This document shows positions 4,193-33,770 of a stretch of 38,273 bases of DNA, one piece after another. Source of the stretch: Methylobacter sp. (GTDB lineage: Bacteria; Pseudomonadota; Gammaproteobacteria; Methylococcales; Methylomonadaceae); NCBI GenBank assembly GCA_004299305.1, contig SCPZ01000114.1:1-38273 (forward strand). Reading direction: 5' to 3'. A program made the position numbers and the translations under genes. Positions within the stretch are counted from its first letter, which is position 1. Each line of letters begins with the position of its first letter. The notes under the pieces were generated by a model that saw only the letters and a program-made list of their open reading frames with translations, was not told the origin of the DNA and searched no databases.

Positions 4193-6130
4193 ATGTCAGA
4201 CCATAAAATTTATGACCTAAAGCCGGAAATAGCGGCCCAAGCGCACATTAGCGCCGAAACCTACCAAACCTTGTACCAGCGTTCCATAGCCGAACCGGAA
4301 GCTTTTTGGGCTGAACAGGCCGGACAATTCCTGGACTGGAGCAAACCTTGGGATAAGGTCATGGACTGCGATTTCAAGACCGGCCATATCCGCTGGTTTG
4401 AAGGCGGAAAACTCAACGTCAGCGTCAATTGCGTGGATCGCCATCTTGCCGCACGCGCCGATCAAGTCGCCATTATCTGGGAAGGCGACAATCCGGCGCA
4501 GGACAAAAAAATCACTTACCGGCAATTGCACGAACAAGTCTGCAAGTTCGCCAATGTCTTAAAAGCCCAAGGCGCCAAAAAAGGCGACCGCGTTTGCATC
4601 TACCTGCCGATGCTCAGCGAGGCGGCGGCGGTGATGCTGGCCTGCACCCGCATCGGCGCGGTGCATTCGATCGTATTCGGAGGATTTTCCGCCGAGGCGT
4701 TAAAAGACCGGATTTTGGATGCCGATTGCCGGTTTCTGGTCTGCGCCGACGAAGGCTACCGTGGCGGCAAAACCATCCCCATTAAAGCCAACGCCGATAA
4801 GGCGGCTGCGGCCTGCCCCGGCCTTGAAAAAGTCATTATGATAAAAAATACCGGCAATACTGTTGACTGGCACGAACAACGCGACATCTGGTATCACGAG
4901 GCGATGGCAAGCGCATCTGCCGACTGCCTCCCCGAAGCCATGGATGCCGAAGACCCGTTATTCATCCTGTACACCTCAGGTTCCACCGGCAAACCTAAAG
5001 GCGTGTTGCACACGACCGGCGGTTATTTGCTGTACGCCGCGATGACCCACAAATATGTGTTCGATTACCACGACGGCGATATTTATTGGTGTACCGCCGA
5101 TATAGGCTGGGTGACTGGCCATTCCTATATGATCTACGGCCCGTTATGCAACGGAGCCACTACCTTGATGTTTGAAGGCGTGCCGACTTATCCCGATGCC
5201 AGCCGCTTTTGGCAGGTGATAGACAAGCATCAAGTTAATATCTTCTATACCGCGCCAACCGCGATCCGCGCACTGATGGCGCAAGGCGATGAATTTGTCG
5301 AACGCTGTTCTCGGCAGAGTTTAAGGATACTCGGCAGCGTTGGCGAACCGATTAACCCGGAAGCCTGGGAATGGTATTACCATAAGGTTGGGGACAGTCG
5401 CTGCCCGGTCGTCGATACCTGGTGGCAAACCGAAACCGGCGGCATCTTAATCACTCCGTTGCCCGGCGCGATAAGCTTAAAGCCGGGTTCAGCCACCCTG
5501 CCCTTTTTCGGCATCAAGCCTGAAATCATGGACAACAGCGGCCAAATTATGGAGGGCGCAGCCGAAGGCATTTTGGTCATCAGCCGTTCCTGGCCGGGAC
5601 AGGCGCGTTCCGTTTTCGGCGACCATCAGCGTTTTGTCGACACCTATTTTAAAAATTACCCCGGTTATTATTTTACCGGAGACGGCGCGCGCCGCGACCA
5701 GGACGGCTATTTCTGGATTACCGGCCGGGTTGACGATGTGATCAATGTCTCCGGCCATCGCATGGGTACAGCGGAAATCGAAAGCGCACTGGTGTTGCAC
5801 GAACATGTCGCCGAAGCGGCGGTGGTCGGTTATCCGCATGATATTAAGGGGCAAGGCATCTACGCCTATGTGACTTTAAATGTCGGCATCGAGCCTTCCG
5901 AAGAGTTGCGTAAAGAACTGATCGACCTAGTCAGGCAAGAAATCGGCCCGATTGCCAACCCGGATATTATCCAGTGGGCGCCGGGACTGCCCAAAACCCG
6001 TTCAGGTAAAATCATGCGCCGCATTTTGCGTAAAGTGGCCTCCAATGAAATCGGCAGCCTGGGCGATACCTCAACCCTGGCCGATCCGGCTGTGGTTGAC
6101 GATATTATTGAGCATAGGGCTAATAAATAA
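4193..6130 (+). CDS. acs: Acetyl-CoA synthetase (AMP-forming)
   Basis: The 645-residue, full-length enzyme converts acetate, ATP and CoA to acetyl-CoA via acetyl-AMP. The P-loop-like motif [11 protein letters not shown] is at about residue 260, the acyl-binding segment [10 protein letters not shown] near 410-420, and the C-terminal [11 protein letters not shown] contains the catalytic lysine (K606, equivalent to Salmonella K609 that is controlled by reversible acetylation). N-terminal sequence [20 protein letters not shown] is typical of Acs. The ATG at 4193 follows AAGGATTAACCCC. It is monocistronic, with no acetyltransferase or deacetylase gene beside it. Confidence 0.97.
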
Positions 6131-6615
6131 CTGCCTACAGCCCATAACTGCAAGCGAGAGGGCGTGCCGTGCGCGCCCTACGATAGAGTAAACCCACCCT
6201 TCGCTCTTACAGTCGCAACTATTCGGTAGTTACCAAAAAAAGGCTATCCACTTAAGCCGGGACAGATAACATCCCTTCAAGGGATGTTATCTGTAAAATC
6301 GTCCCGCTTTAAATTGGAAGCCTTTCTTCGTGTCCTTCGTGGTGAATTTTTGCAACTGTTCTCGGCCCTTGTTAAAGACTTGAAAGCGACCAAAGCCAGC
6401 TCTCCAATAAATTTCTCTGCTGGAGTTCAAAGTCGGCTTCGAATTTTGCATATATTTTGTGACGCGCCGGAGTGCGCGTCAGGCAGAGCGAGTAGTTACG
6501 AATTTTTTTAAGTTTTTTAACCGGCTTCTTCTGGATTTAGCCGTTATTAATCAGAACTCACCTGATTTCATCGTAACTGTTTGGTTTCGAACGGTGTTTT
6601 TATTCTCTCGCCAAA
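6131..6615. other. Intergenic region downstream of acs
   Basis: No convincing gene. It contains a short GC-rich hairpin (AGGGCG at 6159-6164 with CGCCCT at 6174-6179), the 33-bp palindrome at 6262-6294, and AT-rich sequence leading to the nrdJ operator. Reading frames at 6284-6511 and 6459-6647 have no family resemblance and cross repeat or operator sequence. Confidence 0.55.
6262..6294. repeat. Palindrome, 15-bp perfect arms
   Basis: ACAGATAACATCCCT, a TCA loop and the exact complement. It is 130 bases past the acs stop. There is no following T-tract, so a REP-like element or mRNA-stabilising hairpin is more likely than a classic terminator. Confidence 0.75.
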
Positions 6616-6631
6616 ACACTATATATTGTGC
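6616..6631. promoter_or_regulatory. NrdR box 1
   Basis: ACACTATATATTGTGC closely fits the NrdR box consensus acaCwaTATaTwGtgt. NrdR is the ATP/dATP-sensing repressor of ribonucleotide reductase genes. It pairs with a second box 32 bases downstream, the usual three-helical-turn spacing, and lies about 100 bases upstream of nrdJa. Confidence 0.85.
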
Positions 6632-6647
6632 TATCCTGAAAATATAA

Positions 6648-6663
6648 ACACTATATATCGATT
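6648..6663. promoter_or_regulatory. NrdR box 2
   Basis: ACACTATATATCGATT matches the left half of the NrdR box fully and the right half weakly. The first conserved base is 32 bp from that of box 1, on the same helix face. The nrdJ promoter must overlap this region. Confidence 0.8.
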
Positions 6664-6717
6664 ACCAAGCTTAATCCGGCTAATCTTTAAATTTCCACTA
6701 CTACCCGAGACATCCCA

Positions 6718-8868
6718 ATGCCGACAAAGCTACATGTCATCCCGAACACCGTGACCGAAATACCTTTTCAAGACGCTTCAATGGATATTTGGGATACCAA
6801 ATACCGTTTAAAAACCAAAGATGGCGAACCTATTGACGGCGCCATTGATGACACCTACCAACGGGTTGCCAAAGCGCTTTCCGAGGTAGAAAAAGGCAAA
6901 ACCAAGCAAGAGCAATGCTACAAAGACTTTCTGTGGGCATTGCGTCAGGGCGCTATTCCCGCCGGGCGTATTACCTCCAATGCCGGGGCATTAGAGCACA
7001 AACCGGCCACATCGACGATTAACTGCACGGTATCCGGCACCATCGCCGATTCCATGGATGATATTCTGCACAAGGTGCATGAAGCAGGACTAACGCTAAA
7101 AGCCGGTTGCGGAATCGGTTATGAATTTTCGACCCTACGGCCTAAAAACGCTTACGTTTCCGGTGCAGGCGCTTACACCTCAGGTCCGTTATCGTTCATG
7201 GACATCTATGACAAGATGTGTTTTACCGTGTCGTCCGCAGGCGGCAGACGCGGCGCACAAATGGCGACTTTCGATGTCGGCCATCCCGATGTCGTCGAAT
7301 TTATCCGCGCCAAACGCGAAGACGGACGGCTGCGCCAGTTTAACCTGTCGCTGCTGATCACCGCCGAATTTGTCGAAGCGGTAAAAAACGACCTGCCTTG
7401 GTCGCTGTCATTTCCGGTCACCGAAAAAGAAGTCAATCTTGATAACCTGGATTTGACTGACGACAAACAAATCATCTGGCGCGACCTGCCCTATATAGAC
7501 GGTTATATCCTTAACGAAGACGGCATGGTCGCCTGCAAAGTCAGCAAAACCATGCCTGCACGGCGTTTGTGGGACATCATCATGAGTTCGACTTACGACT
7601 ATGCCGAACCGGGATTCATCCTGATCGACAAGGTTAACGAGATGAACAACAATTGGTTTTGCGAGAAGATCAGGGCGACAAATCCTTGCGGAGAGCAGCC
7701 GCTTCCGCCTTACGGGTCCTGCCTTCTAGGTTCGATCAACCTGACCCGCTTCGTTAAAAAGCCATTCACCGGCGATGCGCATTTCGACTGGGACAGCTAC
7801 CGCAAAGCCATCAAAATTTTCACCCGTATGCTGGACAACGTGGTTGAAATCAACGGCCTGCCCCTGCCCCAACAACGTGAAGAAATTCTCAGCAAACGCC
7901 GTCACGGCATGGGTTACCTGGGTTTGGGCTCGACCGTCACCATGATGGGCATGAGATACGGCGATGAACAGTCGCTGCAATTTACCGAAGAAGTCACCAA
8001 AGTCCTGGCCGTCGAAGGCTGGAAAGCCGGACTTGCGCTTGCCAAAGAAAAAGGCCCGGCGCCGATTATGGAGCAAATGTTTAACGTTACCGGCGAAATG
8101 CTGCATAAGCGCCCTGAAATGATTACCGACGGACATAAAATCGGCGACCGGATACCCGGCAAGCTGCTGCATAGCAAATACAGCCGTTATATGCAGCAAC
8201 TGGGCCGGGAAGAACCCGAACTGGTCGCCGAGCTGATCGAAACCGGCTCCCGCTTCACTCATCACAGTTCTATTGCGCCGACCGGCACTATTTCCCTATC
8301 GCTGGCCAATAACGCCAGCAACGGCATAGAACCGAGCTTTGCGCATCATTATTCGCGCAACGTAATCCGCGCCGGTAAAAAATCAAAGGAAAAAATCGAC
8401 GTATTTTCCTTTGAATTGTTGGCCTACCGCGCTTTGATCAATAGCGATGCGATGCCATACAGCGAAGATCCTGCCCGGCAATTACCGGATTATTTCATCT
8501 CGGCGGATGACGTGACCCCGACACAGCATGTCGATATTCAGGCTGCCGCGCAAAAATGGATAGATTCGTCGATCTCGAAAACCGCCAACGTGCCGACCGA
8601 TTATCCGTATGAAGATTTTAAGTTTATCTATGAATATGCCTACGACAAAGGTCTGAAAGGTTGCACCACATTCCGCTTTAACCCTGAAGTGTTCCAGGGC
8701 GTCTTGGTTAAGGAATCGGATCTTGAAAACACCACCTACCAGTTCACGCTGGAAGACGGTCATGTGGTGGAATTTAAAGGCAATGAGGAAGTGGAATACG
8801 ACGGCGAAACCCACAGCGCCGCTAACTTGTTCGATGCCTTGAAAGAAGGCTATTACGGCAAATTTTAA
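6718..8868 (+). CDS. nrdJ: Adenosylcobalamin-dependent (class II) ribonucleotide reductase, catalytic subunit NrdJa
   Basis: The 716-residue enzyme reduces ribonucleoside diphosphates using a B12-derived thiyl radical, without oxygen. Active-site residues are visible: C103 (STINCTVSGT) and C335 (PYGSCLLGSINL) as the redox pair, and N322-P-C324-G-E326-Q with C324 as the radical cysteine. The phosphate-binding SSIAPTGTISL segment is also present. The C-terminal redox tail is missing from this polypeptide and is found in the separate NrdJb gene at 9833, as in Pseudomonas nrdJa-nrdJb. Unusually, another gene starts at the very next base after the stop and separates the two. NrdR boxes lie upstream. 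Confidence 0.95.
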   Translation: MPTKLHVIPNTVTEIPFQDASMDIWDTKYRLKTKDGEPIDGAIDDTYQRVAKALSEVEKGKTKQEQCYKDFLWALRQGAIPAGRITSNAGALEHKPATSTINCTVSGTIADSMDDILHKVHEAGLTLKAGCGIGYEFSTLRPKNAYVSGAGAYTSGPLSFMDIYDKMCFTVSSAGGRRGAQMATFDVGHPDVVEFIRAKREDGRLRQFNLSLLITAEFVEAVKNDLPWSLSFPVTEKEVNLDNLDLTDDKQIIWRDLPYIDGYILNEDGMVACKVSKTMPARRLWDIIMSSTYDYAEPGFILIDKVNEMNNNWFCEKIRATNPCGEQPLPPYGSCLLGSINLTRFVKKPFTGDAHFDWDSYRKAIKIFTRMLDNVVEINGLPLPQQREEILSKRRHGMGYLGLGSTVTMMGMRYGDEQSLQFTEEVTKVLAVEGWKAGLALAKEKGPAPIMEQMFNVTGEMLHKRPEMITDGHKIGDRIPGKLLHSKYSRYMQQLGREEPELVAELIETGSRFTHHSSIAPTGTISLSLANNASNGIEPSFAHHYSRNVIRAGKKSKEKIDVFSFELLAYRALINSDAMPYSEDPARQLPDYFISADDVTPTQHVDIQAAAQKWIDSSISKTANVPTDYPYEDFKFIYEYAYDKGLKGCTTFRFNPEVFQGVLVKESDLENTTYQFTLEDGHVVEFKGNEEVEYDGETHSAANLFDALKEGYYGKF

Positions 8869-22764: not shown

Positions 22765-24507
22765 TTAAATAAACGTAGCTGTTGTCAACGATGTGATTAT
22801 TGAGCCGGTGACCTCAATCACAAAATCAGTAGCGGTAAAGGTATCGGTACGATCTAAATCGACAGCGAGAAATGCCCTTGTTGTCAGGTCGCCGCTACTA
22901 GCCGTTACTATTGCAGCATCAATACCTCCCGAACTATTTTTAAATCCTGTAGACGATGATAACAAGGCATTCATATTATCAACAAATGTAAGCTCGTTAA
23001 GCTCTCCCGCCAAAGGATTAGCGACAACTGCCGTCACCTTAACTTTTAAATTAATCCTGTCCTCGCTGCCATTATTCAGGCTTAAATCCCCGTATAAATC
23101 AACTCCCGCGATGGATGTTGTCGTACATGCCGTATCAGCGATGCCGACAAACTTTATAATGTCATTGCCGGCGCCGGTTGTTACGCTGTCCTGACCGGCG
23201 CCGCCTATGATGACATCATCGCCCTCGCCGCCATCGAGAAGGTCATTACCTAGTCCGCCATCCAGCGTATCATTGCCTAATACGCCGGTTAGACTGTCCT
23301 TACCCTCGCCGCCTGTCAGCTTGTTGTTTCTTAAATCACCCGTCAAAGCATCCTCGTAATGACTGCCAATCAAGTTCTCGAAAGCATAGATCGTATCATT
23401 ACCGGAACCGCCTGTGGTTTGTGGAGAAGCGTCGTCGAGCTTGACGGTAACGCCGCTAATTGCGCCAAATTGATAGGATAGCGTGTCTTCTCCAATATCG
23501 CCGTTTAAAATATTACTGCCGCTATTGGCATAAATTGTGTTGTTTAACGCATTACCGCTACCGTTAATATCCGCTGTACCTGTCAGGCGCAGTTCTTCGA
23601 CATTATTAACGCCCGTTCCATTTAAGCTAAAAGTAACGGTTGAATACACCATGTCCCTACCTGCGCCTTTTTCAAGGATCGTATCATTAGGATCATCGAC
23701 CATATAAATATCATTACCCGCTAAACCAACCAGGACATCTGCACCTGCGCCGCCATCCAGAACATTATCACTGCTGTTACCGGTCAGCTTATTAACTGCG
23801 CTATTGCCAATACCGACTAATGCGCCTGTGCGTAAAATTAAGTTCTCCAGGCCCGTAGCCAGCACATAGTCAATATTGCTGATCACCGTATCAATACCAC
23901 CGCTATCAGTAACTACATCACCCGCCGTAATCAAATAGGTGTCATTACCCCCTGCTCCGGTTAAGGTATCAATACCCATGCCGCCATCGAGTCTACTGCC
24001 GGTGCCGACTCCGGTCAGATTATCGTTAAAGTTAGAACCAATGACATTTTCGATATTTTTTAATACATCGGTCCCCGCTCCGCCTGTAGCCGTTTGCGCA
24101 GCCAAGTTAACTTTTACCGCCGACCAGGCTTTGGCATAAGAAACCGTATCAATGCCCTTCATACCGTCCATATAATCATCGAAATTAGTGCCTATCAACA
24201 TATTGCCAACAACCAGTGAATCATCATTAGTCGTCGCTTCTTTATTATCCCCAATAATTAATTTGCTGCTGTCTGCAAAGGTAAAATTAGCGCTAGTAAT
24301 TTTGCTTTGGGTAAAACCCCTTAAGGTGATAGTTTTTGCCCCGGCTTTTATTTCAAGACCGGCGCCGACGATGGTTAATGTAAGCTCGGAAGCGCTTATG
24401 GATGTATCATCAAAAATTAATTGATCGCTAGTTGAAAAAATTTCCGCCGTCGGAGGAGGCAGCGTGACGACAGCATCAGATAGTGAAGAATAGGTATAAG
24501 TGGTCAT
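22765..24507 (-). CDS. Secreted RTX (haemolysin-type calcium-binding repeat) protein
   Basis: The 580-residue acidic protein has no signal peptide. Calcium-binding nonapeptides are scattered from about residue 110 (GTNFDDYMDG) and concentrate at about 400-460 (GGEGKDSLTGVLGNDTLDGG, LGNDLLDGGEGDDVIIGG). The C-terminal end (FTATDFVIEVTGSIITSL) is the likely type I secretion signal. The N-terminal 100 residues are a beta-rich region without recognised motif. It forms a cassette with the downstream-oriented H-NS gene between the long inverted repeats. Function unknown; no exporter genes are nearby. Confidence 0.88.
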   Translation of the reverse strand: MTTYTYSSLSDAVVTLPPPTAEIFSTSDQLIFDDTSISASELTLTIVGAGLEIKAGAKTITLRGFTQSKITSANFTFADSSKLIIGDNKEATTNDDSLVVGNMLIGTNFDDYMDGMKGIDTVSYAKAWSAVKVNLAAQTATGGAGTDVLKNIENVIGSNFNDNLTGVGTGSRLDGGMGIDTLTGAGGNDTYLITAGDVVTDSGGIDTVISNIDYVLATGLENLILRTGALVGIGNSAVNKLTGNSSDNVLDGGAGADVLVGLAGNDIYMVDDPNDTILEKGAGRDMVYSTVTFSLNGTGVNNVEELRLTGTADINGSGNALNNTIYANSGSNILNGDIGEDTLSYQFGAISGVTVKLDDASPQTTGGSGNDTIYAFENLIGSHYEDALTGDLRNNKLTGGEGKDSLTGVLGNDTLDGGLGNDLLDGGEGDDVIIGGAGQDSVTTGAGNDIIKFVGIADTACTTTSIAGVDLYGDLSLNNGSEDRINLKVKVTAVVANPLAGELNELTFVDNMNALLSSSTGFKNSSGGIDAAIVTASSGDLTTRAFLAVDLDRTDTFTATDFVIEVTGSIITSLTTATFI

Positions 24508-25731: not shown

Positions 25732-28557
25732 ATGAGTAAGCTGCTTAAACTTTTTCAAGATTCTTCTTCCCTCTATGGCAGCAACGCCGGCTTTATTGAA
25801 AACCTATATGAACGCTTTCTGGAAGACCCTGACTCGGTTGAACCCAGCTGGCAAGCAAAATTCAAGGATATTCACAACGGCGCCGATTTTGAGACACCGC
25901 ACAGCCCCGTCATAGAACGCTTTGCGCAACTTGCACTTAAATCGCAAGGCAGGCTGGCGAAATTACAGGATTTTACCGAAGAAAGCGTCAAAAAACAGTC
26001 GGCTGTTGCCCGGCTGATTAATCATTACCGGGTTCGCGGACATCAGATTGCCAACAATAACCCGCTGGGGAAAACCTTGCCGCCGCCTGCCGACATGGAT
26101 CCCGCTTATTACGGTCTTTCCGAGCCGGACATGGACACCTTGTTCGATACCGGCGCGCTTTATGGTGTTGACCGATTGCCGTTACGCGACATTATTGCCA
26201 ATCTGCAAGAGATTTACTGCGGCAGCATCGGCGCTGAGTACATGCATATAGTCGATACTCAAATCAGGCGCTGGATAATAAACCGCCTGGAAAGCTCTAA
26301 AGCCAACTTAGAACTGGAGCCTGAAAAAAAATACTGGTTACTACAATTACTGACCGCCGCCGAGGGCATAGAAAGCCATTTGCACAATCGCTTTGTCGGC
26401 CAAAAACGTTTTTCCCTGGAGGGCGGAGAATCGCTGATCCCGATTCTGGATGAATTAATTCAAGGGCTCGGAGCAAAAGGCGTTAACGAAATCGTGATCG
26501 GCATGGCGCATCGAGGCCGGTTAAATGTATTGGTCAACATCCTGGGTAAAAGCCCCGCCAGCCTATTTAATGAATTTGCCGGCACCTCGCCGCTTTCGCC
26601 GGGCGTCAGCACCGGCGATGTAAAATACCACATGGGTTTTTCATCCGACCTTAGCACCCCCGGCGGGCCGACTCATATAACATTGGCATTCAATCCATCG
26701 CATCTGGAGATCATTAACCCGGTTGTCGAAGGTTCGGTCAAGGCTCGCCAGGACAGGGCCGGAGAAAACGGCATAAACACGGTGATCCCGATATTAATCC
26801 ACGGCGATGCGGCCTTTTCAGGCCAGGGCATCATCATGGAAACCTTGAATATGTCGCAAACCCGCGCTTTTTCCACCGGCGGAACCGTACATATAGTCAT
26901 CAATAATCAAATCGGCTTTACCACCAGCAATCCGCAGGATGCACGCTCCACGCTGTATTGCACCGATGTGGCCAGCATGATCCAGGCGCCGGTTTTTCAT
27001 GTCAACGGCGATGACCCCGACGCCGTTATATTTGTCACCAAGCTGGCGATAGATTACCGGATGACCTTTAATAAGGATGTGGTCATCGATCTTATTTGCT
27101 ATCGGAGGCTAGGACATAATGAAGCTGACGAACCGTCGACCACTCAACCTTTGATGTATAAAAAAATCCGCAAACTGAAGACGACGCGGAAAATTTACGC
27201 AGAAAAACTCATTAAAGCCGGTCTTATCACCGCCGAACAAGCGACAGAGTTGGAGCAAAATTACCAAAAACTGCTCGAAGCCGGTGAAGTCGTTTCCAGA
27301 CCGGTCCTGACCGACGGCCCCTACCCTTACACCAATCAATGGAATAAATTCCTGGGCAGCGACTGGAAGTCACCCTGCAATACCTCGGTTTCCATAGACC
27401 GCCTGCGTTTTTGTAACGACAGAATGCAGCGTTTGCCGACCGGTTTTGAATTACACCCCAGAGTCGCCAAAGTCATGGAGAACCGCCGTAAAATGGCGGC
27501 GGGAGCCATGCCGCTGGATTGGGGATTTGCCGAAAACATGGCCTATGCGACACTGCTGATAAAAAAATACCATGTGCGTTTGATCGGGCAAGATGTCGGT
27601 CGCGGCACCTTTGTACATCGCCATGCTGTTTTTCATAATCAACTCAATAATAAAACCTATACGCCGCTTAAGCACCTGGATAAAGATCAGGGCAATGCAC
27701 AGATTTTCGATTCCCTGCTTTCCGAGGCGGGCGTGTTAGGTTTCGAATACGGCTACAGCACCACGATGCCGAATACCCTAGTTATCTGGGAAGCGCAATT
27801 CGGCGATTTTGCCAATGGTGCGCAAGTGGTTATCGATCAATTTATCAGTTCCGGCGAAACCAAATGGGGCCGCATGTGCCACTTGGTCATGTTGTTGCCG
27901 CACGGCTTTGAAGGCCAAGGACCGGAACACTCCTCCGCCCGGCTGGAACGCTACCTGCAACTGTGCGCCGAACATAACATCCAGGTTTGCTGTCCGACTA
28001 CGCCTGCGCAAATTTTTCATTTGCTGCGCCGCCAGATGTTGCGCCCTTATCGAAAACCATTGATAGTCATGAGCCCCAAGAGCTTGCTGCGGCATAAACT
28101 TGCGGTTTCCACACTGGAAGATTTGACTGGCGGTCAGTTCCTGCCCGTCATCGGAGAGCAAGATGACATCAACCCCAAAAAAGTGACGCGCCTTGTCTTA
28201 TGTGCAGGCAAAGTCTACTACGACCTGCTGGAAGTACGGCGTCAGGACCAGCTTAAGCATGTCGCCATTGCCCGTATAGAACAGCTCTACCCTTTCCCCG
28301 ATGAATTATTTAAAGCGGAAGTCGCCAGATACCCCTTGCTGAAAGAGTTCATCTGGTGCCAGGAAGAACCCCAGAATCAAGGCGTCTGGTATCAGTCCAA
28401 ACATCACTTTAGCGACAACCTCGACCCCAAAATCAACATGACTTATGCCGGTCGCGAAGCATCGGCCGCGCCCGCCGTCGGCAATTTTCGCGTCCATATC
28501 GAACAACAAAAAGCAGTCGTCCAATCGGCCCTTTACGGCAAACCTTCAGGAAAATAA
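25732..28557 (+). CDS. sucA: 2-oxoglutarate dehydrogenase E1 component
   Basis: The 941-residue protein is the thiamine-diphosphate E1 that decarboxylates 2-oxoglutarate and passes the succinyl group to the E2 lipoyl arm. It opens with the typical small N-terminal helix domain ([20 protein letters not shown]), which binds E2 and E3, then [13 protein letters not shown] near 260, the TPP-binding GDAAFSGQG and NNQIGFTT near 362-400, and the C-terminal [15 protein letters not shown]-type segment ([20 protein letters not shown]). Length is normal. It is the first gene of sucA-sucB-lpd; sucB begins two bases after its stop. Confidence 0.97.
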
Positions 28558-28559
28558 TA

Positions 28560-29822
28560 ATGAGCATTGAAGTCCTAGTTCCCAACCTCCCCGAATCCGT
28601 TTCCGATGCGACGCTGATTACTTGGCACAAGCAACCCGGCGACACCGTTATCAAGAACGAAAATCTCGTCGACCTTGAAACGGACAAAGTAGTGCTCGAA
28701 GTTCCGGCCCCGGAATCCGGCATCCTCGGCAAAATACTCAAGAATGACGGCGCCATTGTAGTCGGCGGCGATGTATTGGCCTTGCTGGAACCCCAAGCCA
28801 TTCAACTGCCTTCCGGGCAAACTGTAAAGACGCCTCCTGAACCCGAAGACGATGAATCGGACATACCGCTAAGCCCTTCGGTGCGCCGATTAATTGCCGA
28901 AAATGCGCTGAACCCTTCCCTGATCAAAGGTTCAGGAAAAGATGGCCGCCTAACCAAGACCGATGTATTGGATTACCTGCATAAAAAAACCTTGCAGGAA
29001 GCCCAGCTCATAATACCGGCTAGCAAAGTCGAAATCCCCCTCGACACCCCCTTAGCAAAAGGGGGAGCAGAAAGCCCTCCGTTGATGAAGAAAGACACCG
29101 AAGACAGGGGAATTTCAAACCTGCGCCCGGAACAGCGCGTCCCGATGACCCGGCTAAGAGCCAAGGTCGCCGAACGCCTGTTACAAGCACAGCAAAATGC
29201 GGCAATGCTGACCACATTCAACGAAGTCAACATGCAAAACGTGATTGATCTTCGCAACCAGTACAAAGCCCGATTCGAGCAAAAACACCATGTCAAACTC
29301 GGCTTCATGTCGTTTTTTGTCAAGGCCTCTATCGAAGCGTTAAAACGCTTCCCGGCCATCAACGCCTCCATTGACGATAACGATATTATCTATCACGGCT
29401 ACTACGACATAGGCATCGCCGTCAGCACCGAGCGCGGCCTGATCGTACCGGTATTACGCGACGCAGATCAGCTCGATTTTGCCGGCATCGAACAAAGCAT
29501 CGTCGACTTCGGCGCAAAAACCAAAGCCGGCACCCTAACCTACGACGACTTGAAAGGCGGCACCTTCACCATTACCAACGGCGGCATTTTCGGCTCGATG
29601 CTGTCCACGCCGATACTCAATCCGCCGCAGTGCGCCATCTTGGGTATGCATGCGATCAAGGAGCGGCCTGTTGTTGAGAACGGGCAGATTGTTATCAGGC
29701 CGATTATGTATCTGGCCTTATCCTACGATCATCGCCTGGTTGACGGGCGCGAAGCCGTGCAATTTTTAGTCACCATCAAAGAATGCCTGGAAGCGCCCGC
29801 TCACCTATTGCTTAATATATAG
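28560..29822 (+). CDS. sucB: Dihydrolipoamide succinyltransferase (E2 of 2-oxoglutarate dehydrogenase)
   Basis: 420 residues: a lipoyl domain with the modified lysine K43 in [11 protein letters not shown], a peripheral-subunit-binding domain at about 103-140 ([17 protein letters not shown]), and a catalytic core with [13 protein letters not shown] near the C-terminus. It transfers the succinyl group to CoA. It is preceded by sucA, whose end AGGAAAATAAT supplies its ribosome-binding site. Oddity: the linker between about residues 157 and 187 ([20 protein letters not shown] and on) is encoded by a palindromic repeat and differs from the usual Ala/Pro-rich linker; see the separate repeat entry. 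Confidence 0.96.
29031..29116. repeat. In-frame palindromic repeat inside sucB
   Basis: GAAATCCCCCT and AGGGGAATTTC form the outer arms (one mismatch), and CCCCCTT(29047-29053)/AAGGGGG(29059-29065) an inner hairpin. The unit keeps the sucB reading frame open and sits between the E3-binding and catalytic domains, where extra residues should be tolerated. Confidence 0.65.
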
Positions 29823-29868: not shown

Positions 29869-31296
29869 ATGCCAAACAAGCAAACGCAAGCGTTCGACGT
29901 AATCGTGATCGGCGCAGGGCCGGCAGGCTATTCAGGCGCCATACGGTGCGCCCAACTCGGCTTGAAAACAGCCTGTATTGATAACTGGTACGACAAAAAA
30001 GGCTTAGTCAGCCTGGGCGGCACCTACCTCAATGCGGGGTGCGTTGCGTCTATCGCCTTGCTGGAATCGGCGAAAAATTATCACTCGTTGATCCATAACC
30101 TAAAAGAACACGGCATCCATACCAAAGCGGTTTCCCTGGATATTCCGCTAATGATGCAGCGCAAAAACAACATTATCGACACACTCAGTCAACAAATTGC
30201 CGACTCGTTTACAGATCACAAAATTACCTACATACAGGCGGAAGCCAAACTGCTCAATGAGCGACTGGTGAAAATTACGCCGCTTGATCAATCGGCGGCA
30301 TCAATACTCGAAGCTAAGCATATTATCCTGGCCTCGGGCTCTTCCCCGATCGACTTATCCTGCGCACCGATAGACAACGAATTTATTATCGATTCGACAA
30401 TGGCTTTAAACCTCGACGCGGTACCCAAGCGTTTAGCCATTATCGGTGCGGGTGTCATCGGCCTTGAATTAGCCAGCATCTGGAACAGGCTTGGCGCTGA
30501 AACGATTTTGCTGGAAGCGCAGGAAACATTTTTAAGCATGACCGACCAGCAAATTGCGCGGGAAGCTTATCGTATTTATAGCGAACAGGGATTGGAACTG
30601 CGCTTGGGGGCACGGGTCATTTCAGCCAAAAAAGGCAGTAAAAAGGTCACCGTAGAATATCAGGACAGTGACGGCACACATGCCCTGCGGGTCGATAAAC
30701 TCATTGTCGCATCCGGTCGAAAACCCAATACCGAAAACCTGGCCGCCGCCGAAGCCAACTTACTGCTCGACGAAAACGGCTATGTCCACGTCGATGAAAA
30801 TTGCCGCACCACCCTGCCCGGCGTTTACGCCATCGGCGACCTGACCTTGCTCGGTCCGATGATTGCCCATAAAGGCATAGAAGAAGGCCTATTTGTTGCC
30901 GAGCAAATCGCCGGTATTCACAACGCCGTCAACTATGGACTCCTGCCCAGCGTTGTTTTTACCGATCCTGAAATCGCCTGGGTAGGTCAAACCGAACAAG
31001 CCTTAAGAGCCATGGGCGAATCCATCAAAATCGGCACATTCCCGTTAAATGCCACAGCTCGGGCTCAAGCCATGGGCCAAACTGAAGGCATAGTTAAAAT
31101 CATCGCTGACGCAAATACCGACACCATACTCGGCGTTCATATTATTGGCACGCAAGCCTCAGAAATGATTGCCGAAGCCGTACTGGCTATGGAGTTCTCC
31201 GCCAGCAGCGAAGACTTGGCCAGAACCATACACGCCCACCCCACCCTTGCAAAAGCCCTGCATGGCGCGGCGCTTGCTCTTAAAAACAAGAAATAA
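29869..31296 (+). CDS. lpd: Dihydrolipoyl dehydrogenase-like protein (E3) lacking catalytic residues
   Basis: 475 residues with the full pyridine-nucleotide-disulfide oxidoreductase layout: FAD motif VIGAGPAGYSGAIRCAQLG at the N-terminus, NAD motif IIGAGVIGLELASIWNRLG near 192-211, FAD motif VYAIGDLTLLGPMIAHKGIE near 320, and a dimerisation domain. The position as third gene after sucA and sucB gives the Lpd call. The redox centre, normally GG-CLNVGCIPSKA, reads GGTYLNAGCVASIA here: C58 remains but its partner is Y53, and the conserved lysine of PSK is I62. The active-site dyad HAHPTL-E is HAHPTLAK, so the glutamate is K462. It can bind FAD but should not reduce lipoamide. A second Lpd elsewhere in the genome would have to supply the activity. 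Confidence 0.9.
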   Translation: MPNKQTQAFDVIVIGAGPAGYSGAIRCAQLGLKTACIDNWYDKKGLVSLGGTYLNAGCVASIALLESAKNYHSLIHNLKEHGIHTKAVSLDIPLMMQRKNNIIDTLSQQIADSFTDHKITYIQAEAKLLNERLVKITPLDQSAASILEAKHIILASGSSPIDLSCAPIDNEFIIDSTMALNLDAVPKRLAIIGAGVIGLELASIWNRLGAETILLEAQETFLSMTDQQIAREAYRIYSEQGLELRLGARVISAKKGSKKVTVEYQDSDGTHALRVDKLIVASGRKPNTENLAAAEANLLLDENGYVHVDENCRTTLPGVYAIGDLTLLGPMIAHKGIEEGLFVAEQIAGIHNAVNYGLLPSVVFTDPEIAWVGQTEQALRAMGESIKIGTFPLNATARAQAMGQTEGIVKIIADANTDTILGVHIIGTQASEMIAEAVLAMEFSASSEDLARTIHAHPTLAKALHGAALALKNKK

Positions 31297-31307: not shown

Positions 31308-31376
31308 GGATAACTGGGGTCAGGGATAACTGGGGTCAGAGTAAACTTAGATTAACTTTACTCTGACCCCAGTTAT
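31308..31376. repeat. GGGGTCAGAG-type palindrome with tandem unit
   Basis: GGATAACTGGGGTCAG is repeated twice (31308-31323, 31324-31339). ATAACTGGGGTCAGAGTAAA at 31326-31345 pairs perfectly with 31357-31376. This hairpin ends the truncated Rhs reading frame that follows on the minus strand, and is a known type of REP-like sequence often associated with IS200-like transposases. Confidence 0.8.
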
Positions 31377-32085
31377 TCCAGCTGTAGTTGGCGGTTTTGC
31401 CACGGGCATCGATGCGGGTGGCGAGGTTTCCGGCGGCATCGTGGTTGGCATCGGTGCTGCCGGTGTCGGGGCTGGTTTGTTTGCGCAGGTTGCCCAAGCT
31501 GTCCATGGCGTAATGGGTGCTGAGGTTGCGCGGGTCGGTGATACTGGTGACTTGTCCCTGGCTGTCGTAGGCGGTGTCGATTTGTCCCAGGGTGCTGCCG
31601 ATGATGCTTGGATGGGGTTCAAGTTGACGAACCGCTTGGTTCAGGGTGTCGTACTGGGTCTGACGGATGCGCCCGAGCGGGTCGGTGATTTGGGTCAGGT
31701 TGCCGTTGGCGTTATATTGGTAGCTGGTGATTGCCGGAGCCGAGAAGCTGGCGTTCACTGATCGCGCTTGGCTCAGAGTAACGGTGCAGGTGGTTGCGGT
31801 GCCGGTACATGCGCCGAACCAGCCGCCGAAGGTCGAGCCGGTTGTCGGTATCGCGGTTAGGGTGACGACGCTGCCGGGTGTGAAGGTTGCGCTACAGGTT
31901 GCACCGCAGTCGATTCCGGCTGGTGAGCTGGTGAGGGTGCCGGTTCCTGATCCGGTTTTGGCGAGATTGAACCTTCTTGGCCGGACGACAGTTTTTCGTT
32001 GCCCAAAATTCCGGTGTTCGGTTGTGGAACGGCGGCGAATAGGTTGATAACCGTTTTTATATTTAAGCATCAAAATATTGGGCAT
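31336..32085 (-). pseudogene. Rhs/YD-repeat protein fragment with InlB-like domain
   Basis: The 249-codon frame holds YD-repeats (YQYNANGNLTQITDPLGRIR, YAMDSLGNLRKQT, HDAAGNLATRIDARG) after a divergent InlB B-repeat-like domain (FTPGSVVTLTAIPTTGSTFG, then GWFGACTGTATTCTVTL). It lacks the Rhs N-terminal export region, core DPIG motif and toxin tip. The 3' end is lost in the palindrome at 31326-31376, which supplies the last codons and stop. It is a remnant, and its first 30 residues look off-frame. Confidence 0.8.
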
Positions 32086-32196
32086 GAATATTGTTGGAAT
32101 GTTAAACCCCGAGGTTCACGAACAATCCATTTCGAGTATCAAGATTTACAGCATAGCTAGACATCGAAAAGGGGCGCGATGCGCCCCCTACCCGGC

Positions 32197-32568
32197 TTAA
32201 GCACCCATTGCAGATAAAAGTATTGCTTTAAGGTTTTCCACATCATCACCCATTACAAAATCTATCGCAGAATCACCATAATCATTTCTAATCGTTGGAT
32301 TGGCTCCAGCGTTTAAAAGAGCTAAAACGATTTCCTTATGCTTTTTAAGAGCCGCATTATGTAACGGTGTATTTCCGATATCCCCTCTAACGTTTACATC
32401 AACATTCGTACCTAACATAGTTATTAAGTCGTCTATATCACCTCTATAACTTGCAATATGCAACGGGGTTTCTTCATCAATGCCAGCTTGATCAAATCTA
32501 AAGAGATCAACATTTTCAAAGGAATCCATCTTTTTATACTTTTCCAAGAGAATCTCTTTATACGTCAT
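32197..32568 (-). CDS. Ankyrin-repeat protein, candidate Rhs immunity protein
   Basis: 123 residues from the ATG at 32568, preceded by AAAGGTG; an upstream ATG at 32592 would overlap the Rhs stop by 10 bases. It contains about three ankyrin repeats: ETPLHIASYRGDIDDLITML, VNVRGDIGNTPLHNAALKKH, and a final NPTIRNDYGDSAIDF unit. Its position directly downstream of the Rhs toxin tip, in the same direction, is where cognate immunity genes lie. Ankyrin-type immunity proteins are known in polymorphic toxin systems, but the pairing here is inferred. Confidence 0.75.
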   Translation of the reverse strand: MTYKEILLEKYKKMDSFENVDLFRFDQAGIDEETPLHIASYRGDIDDLITMLGTNVDVNVRGDIGNTPLHNAALKKHKEIVLALLNAGANPTIRNDYGDSAIDFVMGDDVENLKAILLSAMGA

Positions 32569-32582
32569 TTGTGATGCACCTT

Positions 32583-33770
32583 TTATGGGCATTTTTTAGG
32601 GCACATCTCGTCATATTGTTTTTTCCACTCTGCAATTTCTTGTCTTTTCAATTGAATTTCATTGAAATGGCGACCGCTTGGAAACTTTGGATGCGGCCAA
32701 TTTTTATCCCACTGTTCTTTCATATCATAAAGTTGCTCATGGTGGTCAATTTTATTTCTTAGATCTTTACATGGATCGCCAGTTTTTGAATATCCTTGGT
32801 CTGCAAAGTCTTTATATGCTTGATGCTCCTGATTCCTTCTGACCTTATCACTTAATGAATCAGCAATCATTCCCCCTCCAAGCCCAAAGGTCAAACCATC
32901 TACAATAGCCTGACCCGCAGTGATAAGGATTGTCCCTTCAATAATACAAGCGTCTTCCAAACATAATCCCTTTGAATCAGCCCACCTAATTGGATTCCCT
33001 CTGACATAGGTATAAGTATTAACCCCACCGCTTTGCCCAATCGGATCACTTTCAATATATCTACCCGTCTTCGAGTCATAATCCCTAAAATAGTTATAAA
33101 ACAGCCCGGTTTCCGCATCGTAATATTGCCCCGGAAAGCGCAGGTTAAAGACAAAGTCGCCTAGGCCTGAAGGGTTTTGATCCGGTAGGCTGTTGCCGAA
33201 AGCTTCGGACTCCCAAGTCCACACGATTTTGCTGTCATTTGGCCGAGTAATTTTTCTCGGCGTCCCCAGATGATCGGCATGGATGTAGTAGATGTCGGTT
33301 GTGGCACTTGCGGGGATTGTCGGTTTCAGCACCGCCACCGGCAAGTCGCCCAGCCAGATGATTTCCTGAATCAGTTGGCCGGTGGCGTCATATTCGCCGG
33401 TCAGATGGCCTTGCTCGTCATAGAAATATTGGGTGGTATTGCCTCCGTTGGTTTTAGTCACGCGCTGGCCGATGGCGTCGTAGCCGTAGTTGACTGTTTG
33501 CCCGGTTGCTGTGTCGGTGGTTGCGATGCGCCGTCCTGCTGAGTTATAGCTGTGGGTGAACCTGCCGTCGCCGGTCAGGTTGCCCATTAGATCGTAACTG
33601 TAACTGACGGTTTGCGCTCCGCTCTGGCTTTGCAGCCGGTTGCTGTTGGCATCGGTGCTGTAGCTGTACTGGGTGGTATTGTCCTTTATTTTGCCGGTGC
33701 GGTTACCGCTCAGATCGTAACTGTAGTCGATGCGGCTTAGGGCCGGTTCGCCGCGTTGGCTGCCGGTCAA
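32583..33770 (-). pseudogene. C-terminal part of an Rhs/YD-repeat protein with a toxin-like tip, 5' truncated
   Basis: The 395-codon frame (TTG at 33770) contains YD-repeats, the Rhs core DHLGTPRKITRP and RFPGQYYDAETGLFYNYF, then YDSKTGRYIESDPIG. The tip that follows (about 260-395) has a hydrophobic piece and a charged, cysteine-bearing end (CKDLRNKIDHHEQLYDMKEQ, WKKQYDEMCPKKCP); I do not recognise its activity. The 5' end is broken: upstream codons are stopped by a palindromic repeat inserted at 33803. It may be a silent orphan tip, or expressed as a fragment. Confidence 0.82.

Follow-up and report, generated by a model that had tools for sequence, protein, structure and literature searches.

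We identified, directly behind sucA and sucB in a Methylobacter genome, a gene for a lipoamide dehydrogenase (Lpd; the E3 component) homologue without the redox disulfide, referred to here as pseudo-E3. Judged by its sequence, pseudo-E3 is real, unusual and conserved, and the prediction that it is non-catalytic for the E3 reaction is well supported. The best explanation as a whole, with a probability of about one half, is that pseudo-E3 is an ancient, nucleotide-binding subunit on E2 that restricts recruitment of the true E3. Among the options raised in an earlier note on this DNA, a structural or regulatory pseudo-E3 fits best.

Operon and altered active site

The window (the whole stretch of DNA analysed, 38,273 nucleotides) carries sucA, sucB and the pseudo-E3 gene in this order, with 46 bases between the last two. 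The gene thus has the E3 position in the operon, as the earlier note had it; the span given there, 30001..31255, covers most of the open reading frame but not its full extent (29869-31296). The features are as follows.

25732..28557, + strand: sucA, 2-oxoglutarate dehydrogenase E1, 941 aa (NF006914, 1320 bits against a cut-off of 764; TIGR00239, 1223 against 770)
28560..29822, + strand: sucB, dihydrolipoyllysine succinyltransferase E2, 420 aa (NF004309, 564 bits against 449)
28866..28970, + strand: E3-binding (peripheral subunit-binding) domain of SucB, residues 103-137 (PF02817, 44.5 bits against 23.7)
29869..31296, + strand: pseudo-E3, Lpd homologue without redox disulfide, 475 aa (open reading frame; TIGR01350, 457.7 bits against 408.8)
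29911..29928, + strand: first FAD (Rossmann) motif GAGPAG of pseudo-E3, residues 15-20
30016..30054, + strand: altered redox loop GGTYLNAGCVASI of pseudo-E3, residues 50-62
30025..30027, + strand: codon 53, TAC (Tyr), replacing the first redox Cys
30040..30042, + strand: codon 58, TGC, second (flavin-side) Cys, retained
30052..30054, + strand: codon 62, ATC (Ile), replacing the flavin-site Lys
30445..30462, + strand: NAD-binding motif GAGVIG of pseudo-E3, residues 193-198
30826..30840, + strand: second FAD motif YAIGD of pseudo-E3, residues 320-324
31237..31239, + strand: codon 457, CAC, catalytic His position, retained in the window copy
31252..31254, + strand: codon 462, AAA (Lys), replacing the dyad Glu

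A profile search matched the lipoyl, E3-binding and catalytic domains of SucB, all three. Pseudo-E3 scores above the curated E3 cut-off (TIGR01350), and automatic annotation names it as E3 because this score is passed. Metabolic models that use the name may therefore credit 2-oxoglutarate dehydrogenase (OGDH) with an E3 that is probably absent.

The codons read at 53, 62 and 462 (TAC, ATC and AAA) bear out the three replacements described in the earlier note, and codon 60 (GCG) places Ala where Pro is conserved. Its statement that the catalytic disulfide is lost holds for the first Cys but not for the second, Cys58, which is present; similarly, the His-Glu dyad has lost its Glu but not its His. 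Thus the Cys pair CxxxxC (Y53, C58), the Lys of PSK (I62) and the dyad (K462) of an E3 are all broken in the window protein, and the FAD and NAD Rossmann motifs (GAGPAG, GAGVIG, YAIGD), which the note also reported, are in place.

A promoter and terminator scan gave counts close to the shuffled mean. Immediately downstream of the suc operon, by eye, are YD/RHS-type repeat ORFs (31336-32085 and 32583-33770) with a short ankyrin-like ORF (32197-32592) between them, the whole block (31336-33770) being on the minus strand. Also by eye, a 580-aa ORF at 22765-24507 (minus strand) has RTX-like glycine/aspartate repeats.

Active-site residues across copies

Residues were counted in 113 aligned rows, 106 of which are distinct after removal of 7 duplicates. 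The rows comprise 44 loci of the pseudo-E3 type from earlier homology searches (L003 and L053-L057, which repeat genes already included, were left out) and 69 from a search of the host family. Nine of the 69 were taken automatically and 60 were picked by hand, low-identity copies first, as a sample of 149 matching genomes. Copies L043, L045 and L048, from other families, stand outside the 106. The comparison set consists of 77 Lpds chosen regardless of motif: 7 matches from families f7 and f8, and 70 named records (L068-L137) from the best 80 of 522 confirmed matches. For these 70, sucB is on the same stretch in 66.

Cys53 occurs in none of the 106 distinct pseudo-E3 copies; the position is Tyr (65), His (23) or Phe (16) in 104 of them, and Val and Asn account for one each. 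Lys62 is likewise absent from all 106, and the residue there is always hydrophobic (Ile 41, Met 38, Leu 14, Val 12, Phe 1). Other catalytic positions are more variable: Cys58 is kept in 82 copies and lost in 24, His457 is lost in 21, and both are absent in 14. Position 462 is Glu in 79 copies, Lys in 23 and another residue in 4 (Glu lost in 27). All 77 comparison Lpds (70 of them from the best 80 of 522) have Cys53, Cys58, Pro60 and Lys62, and likewise His457 and Glu462.

Residues outside the redox site are well conserved. G195, G198, G323, D324, H334 and K335 are invariant in the 106 copies, and Glu200 is present in 104. In 69 of 69 host-family copies, the GxGxxG for NAD and the GD pair in the second FAD motif are intact. 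Columns G15, G17 and G20 of the first FAD motif are invariant in 14 divergent copies (alignment A1), and the third Gly of this motif is missing in some copies of genus g28. The comparison set has 133 positions with an identity of 96% or more, and 108 of these are conserved in 80% or more of 40 family copies. We infer from these motifs that pseudo-E3 still binds nucleotides.

Seven copies from genus g28 (L193, L194, L204, L209, L211, L216 and L222) have a redox loop that is eroded further, some without GG. The eroded copies are still full-length, with an open frame behind sucB; the first FAD or the AHK motif is eroded in some.

Among the named loci (the best 80 of 522 confirmed matches), Cys53 is missing from the ten nearest, L058-L067, and present in the remaining 70. 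The ten are assigned to Methylobacter, Methylovulum, Crenothrix polyspora and unclassified Methylococcales or Methylococcaceae. The type I methanotroph host proposed in the earlier note agrees with a pmoA-family match that spans 237 of 238 positions and with Methylobacter as nearest named relatives among these best 80 of 522.

The survey of Cys-to-Tyr and Glu-to-Lys changes that the note suggested finds both recurring. All 23 same-genus genomes, counting the host's own, have Tyr53. Lys462 is nearly restricted to the genus (22 of 23 genomes), with one further case, L043, in family f5. A sequencing error, which the note considered as a way to restore Cys53, is excluded: Cys53 and Lys62 are lost in 106 of 106 distinct copies, and the gene and its Tyr53 recur in every same-genus genome.

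Distribution, phylogeny and selection

The pseudo-E3 gene has no stop within the match in any of the 23 same-genus genomes. A match at E ≤ 1e-100 was found in 149 of 201 host-family genomes, and none in 52. In the wider order, the disulfide-less form occurs in one of three f2 genomes and in the single f5 genome, and the intact form in all f7 (5/5) and f8 (2/2) genomes. At the same threshold we identified no pseudo-E3 match in two f3 and six f4 genomes, and the five f6 genomes have a single distant off-operon relative, L048. Families f4 and f6 carry sucA in 11 of 11 genomes. The absence of the Lpd from f4 and f6 is based on this homology search and not on the ORF table, which hides genes in GC-rich loci (e.g., sucA and sucB in L142).

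L048 (7602-9080 in G052, f6) encodes an E3-like protein of 47% identity that has lost the first Cys (GGTSLLNGCIPAK, HAYPSLSD). It is not beside sucAB and is preceded by a small secreted cupredoxin-like ORF.

In G030 (L138, about 5700-7176) pseudo-E3 is frameshifted behind intact sucAB, and this lineage seems to be losing the gene. The matched range is interrupted by a stop in G179, G189 and G194 in the host-family search, with G179 reading as a full-length frame, and at least 7 host-family matches are partial. Because 52 of 201 family genomes have no match and the G030 copy is frameshifted, pseudo-E3 is dispensable, a point against the explanation preferred here. One genome bin, G008, holds two pseudo-E3 genes (on C131 and C6), 88-89% identical to the window gene, which may reflect a mixed bin or a duplication.

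In a first tree, built from all columns and long rows, the relationship between the f1 clade and the f2/f5 pair (L043, L045) was unresolved. A second tree of 55 rows, rooted on two Pseudomonas rows, left out the active-site columns; it included 5 of 7 rows from f7/f8 and 27 of the 70 named ones, and L048 was omitted for its long branch. Here the 23 disulfide-less rows (f1, f2 and f5) form a single branch (support 100/99) that connects at 98/96 to the intact f7 and f8 Lpds, which are of the same order. Several separate losses are disfavoured by this single branch. The simplest reading of the tree is a single loss, retained since.

Median dN/dS of pseudo-E3 is 0.098 (223 of 253 same-genus pairs, with dS <1.5), close to 0.076 for sucB (210 of 231 same-genus pairs), both being rough values from a simple counting method at a mean dS near 1. 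We conclude from these codon comparisons that pseudo-E3 is under purifying selection. The altered loop (residues 48-66, 19 codons) has a ratio of 0.03, the lowest of 8 regions within the genus, and therefore the altered site itself is constrained in the genus.

Linkage to sucB and intact E3 at other loci

By a distance rule, sucB is upstream of pseudo-E3 in 64 of 69 further host-family loci. Of the remaining five, four have no sucB on the stretch retrieved, and in the fifth sucB is present and the ORF overlap is longer. All ten named loci of the pseudo-E3 type (the nearest ten among the best 80 of 522) have sucB upstream. In G037 and G040, pseudo-E3 follows sucB and sucA is on a different contig: in G040 other genes come after sucA, and in G037 the sucA contig ends there and sucB is preceded by an unrelated ORF. 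This linkage to sucB apart from sucA indicates E2, the bearer of the E3-binding domain, as the partner. The lipoyl-lysine, E3-binding and catalytic sites are present in 37 of 37 selected SucB proteins. Pseudo-E3 may thus be a subunit of the OGDH complex, held by the E3-binding domain of SucB. In G033 a different gene stands behind sucAB, and in G044 and G050 (L143, L146) an ispG-like ORF, by eye, follows sucA with no sucB alongside.

A second intact lpd at another locus, which the earlier note had suggested as the source of E3, is indeed present. The own genome encodes two intact PDH-type Lpds, C120 (behind an aceF-like E2) and C79 (apart), which are 34-36% identical to pseudo-E3 and have an intact active site. 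The intact motif GGVCLNVGCIPSK was found in all 23 genomes read for it (20 of 20 further genomes, plus G030, G033 and G035), and a lipoamide dehydrogenase match above cut-off in 61 of 61 genomes. G012 and G026, two incomplete genomes, have pseudo-E3 and a low-scoring Lpd-like frame as their best Lpd matches. C79 and C120 are likely the working E3.

Of the 52 host-family genomes without a pseudo-E3 match, 20 were sampled for sucB, and the motif of other Lpds was read in G030, G033 and G035. Sixteen of the 20 keep sucB. Seven of these (G035, G085, G107, G122, G124, G138 and G145) have a single Lpd-like match at E ≤ 1e-30, and that of G035 reads as intact. Thus, where sucB is kept without pseudo-E3, a shared E3 from elsewhere must serve the complex, if it is active.

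A further Lpd-like domain, with an intact CLNTGCIPSK, is fused behind a TVP38/DedA-like membrane domain in L004 (724-2934 in G000:C132; by eye). Frames of about 720-760 aa are common among relatives.

Relation to methanotroph physiology

A passage of PMC517821 states that nearly all type I methanotrophs lack 2-oxoglutarate dehydrogenase activity, and that Methylococcus capsulatus has the genes with the activity reported missing. A model of M. capsulatus blocks the OGDH reaction because no activity has been measured, as described in part of PMC6288188. For Methylotuvimicrobium alcaliphilum, Table 3 of PMC5802761 gives pyruvate dehydrogenase activities of 120 (methane) and 290 (methanol) nmol/min/mg, and lists 2-oxoglutarate dehydrogenase with NAD+ as not detected. 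Models of Methylobacter and Methylomonas described in excerpts of PMC7333651 assign the reaction <2% of TCA flux, and the regulating factor is called unclear there. Other accounts describe a functioning cycle. A succinate dehydrogenase mutant of Methylomonas DH-1 accumulates succinate (PMC6373157, in part), and a complete cycle in M. buryatense is attributed to Fu et al. 2017 as cited by PMC6373157. An excerpt of PMC10602362 describes the M. buryatense cycle as complete on methane and incomplete on methanol.

Pseudo-E3 is carried by G032 (L038). On a small contig of this genome, an 18-kb stretch matches a M. alcaliphilum plasmid with 59% covered at 96.1% identity, and the plasmid protein search gave 628 records, all <60% identity. 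G032 may be Methylotuvimicrobium-like, judging from one plasmid comparison, and plasmids move. If so, the activities measured in M. alcaliphilum would fit the explanation preferred here.

A full block of OGDH by pseudo-E3 is disfavoured, in so far as those strains carry the gene, by reports of a working OGDH or a complete oxidative cycle in DH-1 and M. buryatense. The earlier note proposed the altered gene as one molecular cause of the missing activity. This may hold in part, but pseudo-E3 is not the general cause, because f4 and f6 have sucA without it (bar L048) and M. capsulatus, by the passages cited above, is also without activity. Pseudo-E3 as the single cause was rejected on the same evidence, and there is no unique tie between pseudo-E3 and the phenotype. 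A conserved pseudo-E3 in the suc operon, with its putative link to the methanotroph TCA question, is a concrete and testable candidate for part of the long-debated OGDH question in type I methanotrophs.

Function of pseudo-E3

We suggest that a dedicated OGDH-type Lpd lost its dithiol site in an ancestor of the methanotroph lineage, probably once both complexes could be served by a PDH-type Lpd from another locus. What was retained would be a folded E3-like subunit that binds nucleotides. Pseudo-E3 most likely binds SucB at its E3-binding domain, in competition with true E3; the amount of pseudo-E3, and perhaps its bound FAD or NAD(H), would limit NAD-linked 2-oxoglutarate dehydrogenase flux. 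Pseudo-E3 may in this way be a brake on OGDH. That gammaproteobacterial methanotrophs made it into a metabolic valve, in which a nucleotide-sensing pseudo-E3 on E2 displaces true E3 and adjusts NAD-linked TCA flux to NADH status, is a tentative extension that we consider rather unlikely. If true, it would account for low or undetected OGDH in extracts of methanotrophs of this family despite sucAB.

Pseudo-E3 could instead be a structural subunit only, one that takes up space at the E2 periphery or stabilises it (affecting stoichiometry or solubility, or covering free E3-binding domains) and does not regulate flux. The sucB linkage, the kept fold and catalytic residues that are free to vary support this as well as they support a brake, and in genus g28 the loop, GG, and first FAD or AHK motif erode in some copies whose frame remains open behind sucB. 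However, the NAD motif and second-FAD GD, kept in 69/69 copies, are more than pure filler would seem to need, and there are lineages with sucB but without pseudo-E3, so that we consider a purely structural role rather doubtful. We regard it as unlikely that pseudo-E3 is a flavoenzyme that passes electrons by a different route (as an NADH diaphorase, a transhydrogenase, or a quinone or peroxide reductase). The FAD and NAD motifs are kept, as is Glu200 (104/106), and SthA, a relative, functions although it lacks the usual disulfide. The loop is strongly constrained in the genus (0.03), and the site is patterned, with an aromatic residue or His at 53 in 104/106 and a hydrophobic residue at 62 in 106/106, which is not free drift. 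On the other hand, Lys62, which presumably aids flavin reduction in the Lpd family, is gone in 106/106 copies; Cys58 and His457 vary, leaving no conserved alternative catalytic set visible; and the transhydrogenase model (NF003585, SthA) scores 297 bits against a cut-off of 465. The erosion in genus g28 leans towards a non-redox role, at least there.

The earlier note also offered a decaying gene, an operon relic on its way out. The 52 of 201 family genomes without a match, the frameshift in G030, the eroded g28 copies and some partial matches are what decay might produce, but 23/23 same-genus genomes have no stop in the match, the median dN/dS is 0.098, and the two losses, like the retained motif residues, are common to 106 distinct copies. 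With conservation across the family and one clearly frameshifted copy (G030), ordinary decay is rejected as the main reading, and we consider it very improbable. It is more improbable still that pseudo-E3 remains an E3, turning over lipoamide through Cys58 alone or a relocated thiol. The TIGR01350 score (457.7 vs 408.8 bits) and the His457 and Cys58 of the window copy would fit such an activity, as would Cys54 in L193, L216 and L222 (all genus g28; L193 also has Cys58). However, Cys58 is missing in 24/106 copies, His457 in 21/106 and both in 14/106, no Cys is found anywhere at 49-56 in 103/106, and known Lpds require both redox Cys. The E2-bound, nucleotide-binding subunit that limits recruitment of true E3 therefore remains our preferred explanation.

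Comparison with known systems

Pseudo-E3 combines clade-wide loss of catalytic residues with purifying selection, as expected of a pseudoenzyme, and would be an E3-derived one inside a 2-oxoacid dehydrogenase complex. We found no earlier description of such a protein among the papers listed in literature searches (titles and abstract openings; few subscription journals covered).

The closest structural comparison is LpdG of Pseudomonas (5u8u/5u8v, 1lpf), which shares 51% identity and the FAD and NAD motifs with pseudo-E3, and whose gene also stands behind sucAB. An AlphaFold2 model of pseudo-E3 (mean pLDDT 90.1, pTM 0.87; a monomer without ligand, which says nothing on binding) superposes on 5u8v over nearly the full length (TM 0.97, rmsd 1.0). 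Unlike LpdG, the window protein lacks the redox disulfide and the flavin-site Lys, and its dyad Glu is replaced by Lys. In f7 and f8, the intact Lpds share the position behind sucAB (seen for L042), but have Cys53, Cys58, Lys62, His457 and Glu462 in 7 of 7. The PDH-type Lpds C79 and C120 belong to the same superfamily as pseudo-E3.

SthA, the Si-specific transhydrogenase, is another E3-like flavoprotein, and it works without the Cys pair; to our knowledge it has no linkage to an E2. Mammalian E3BP, a non-catalytic subunit of 2-oxoacid dehydrogenase complexes that serves assembly, resembles pseudo-E3 as a dead relative of a complex component. Unlike pseudo-E3, however, E3BP stems from E2 and not from E3.
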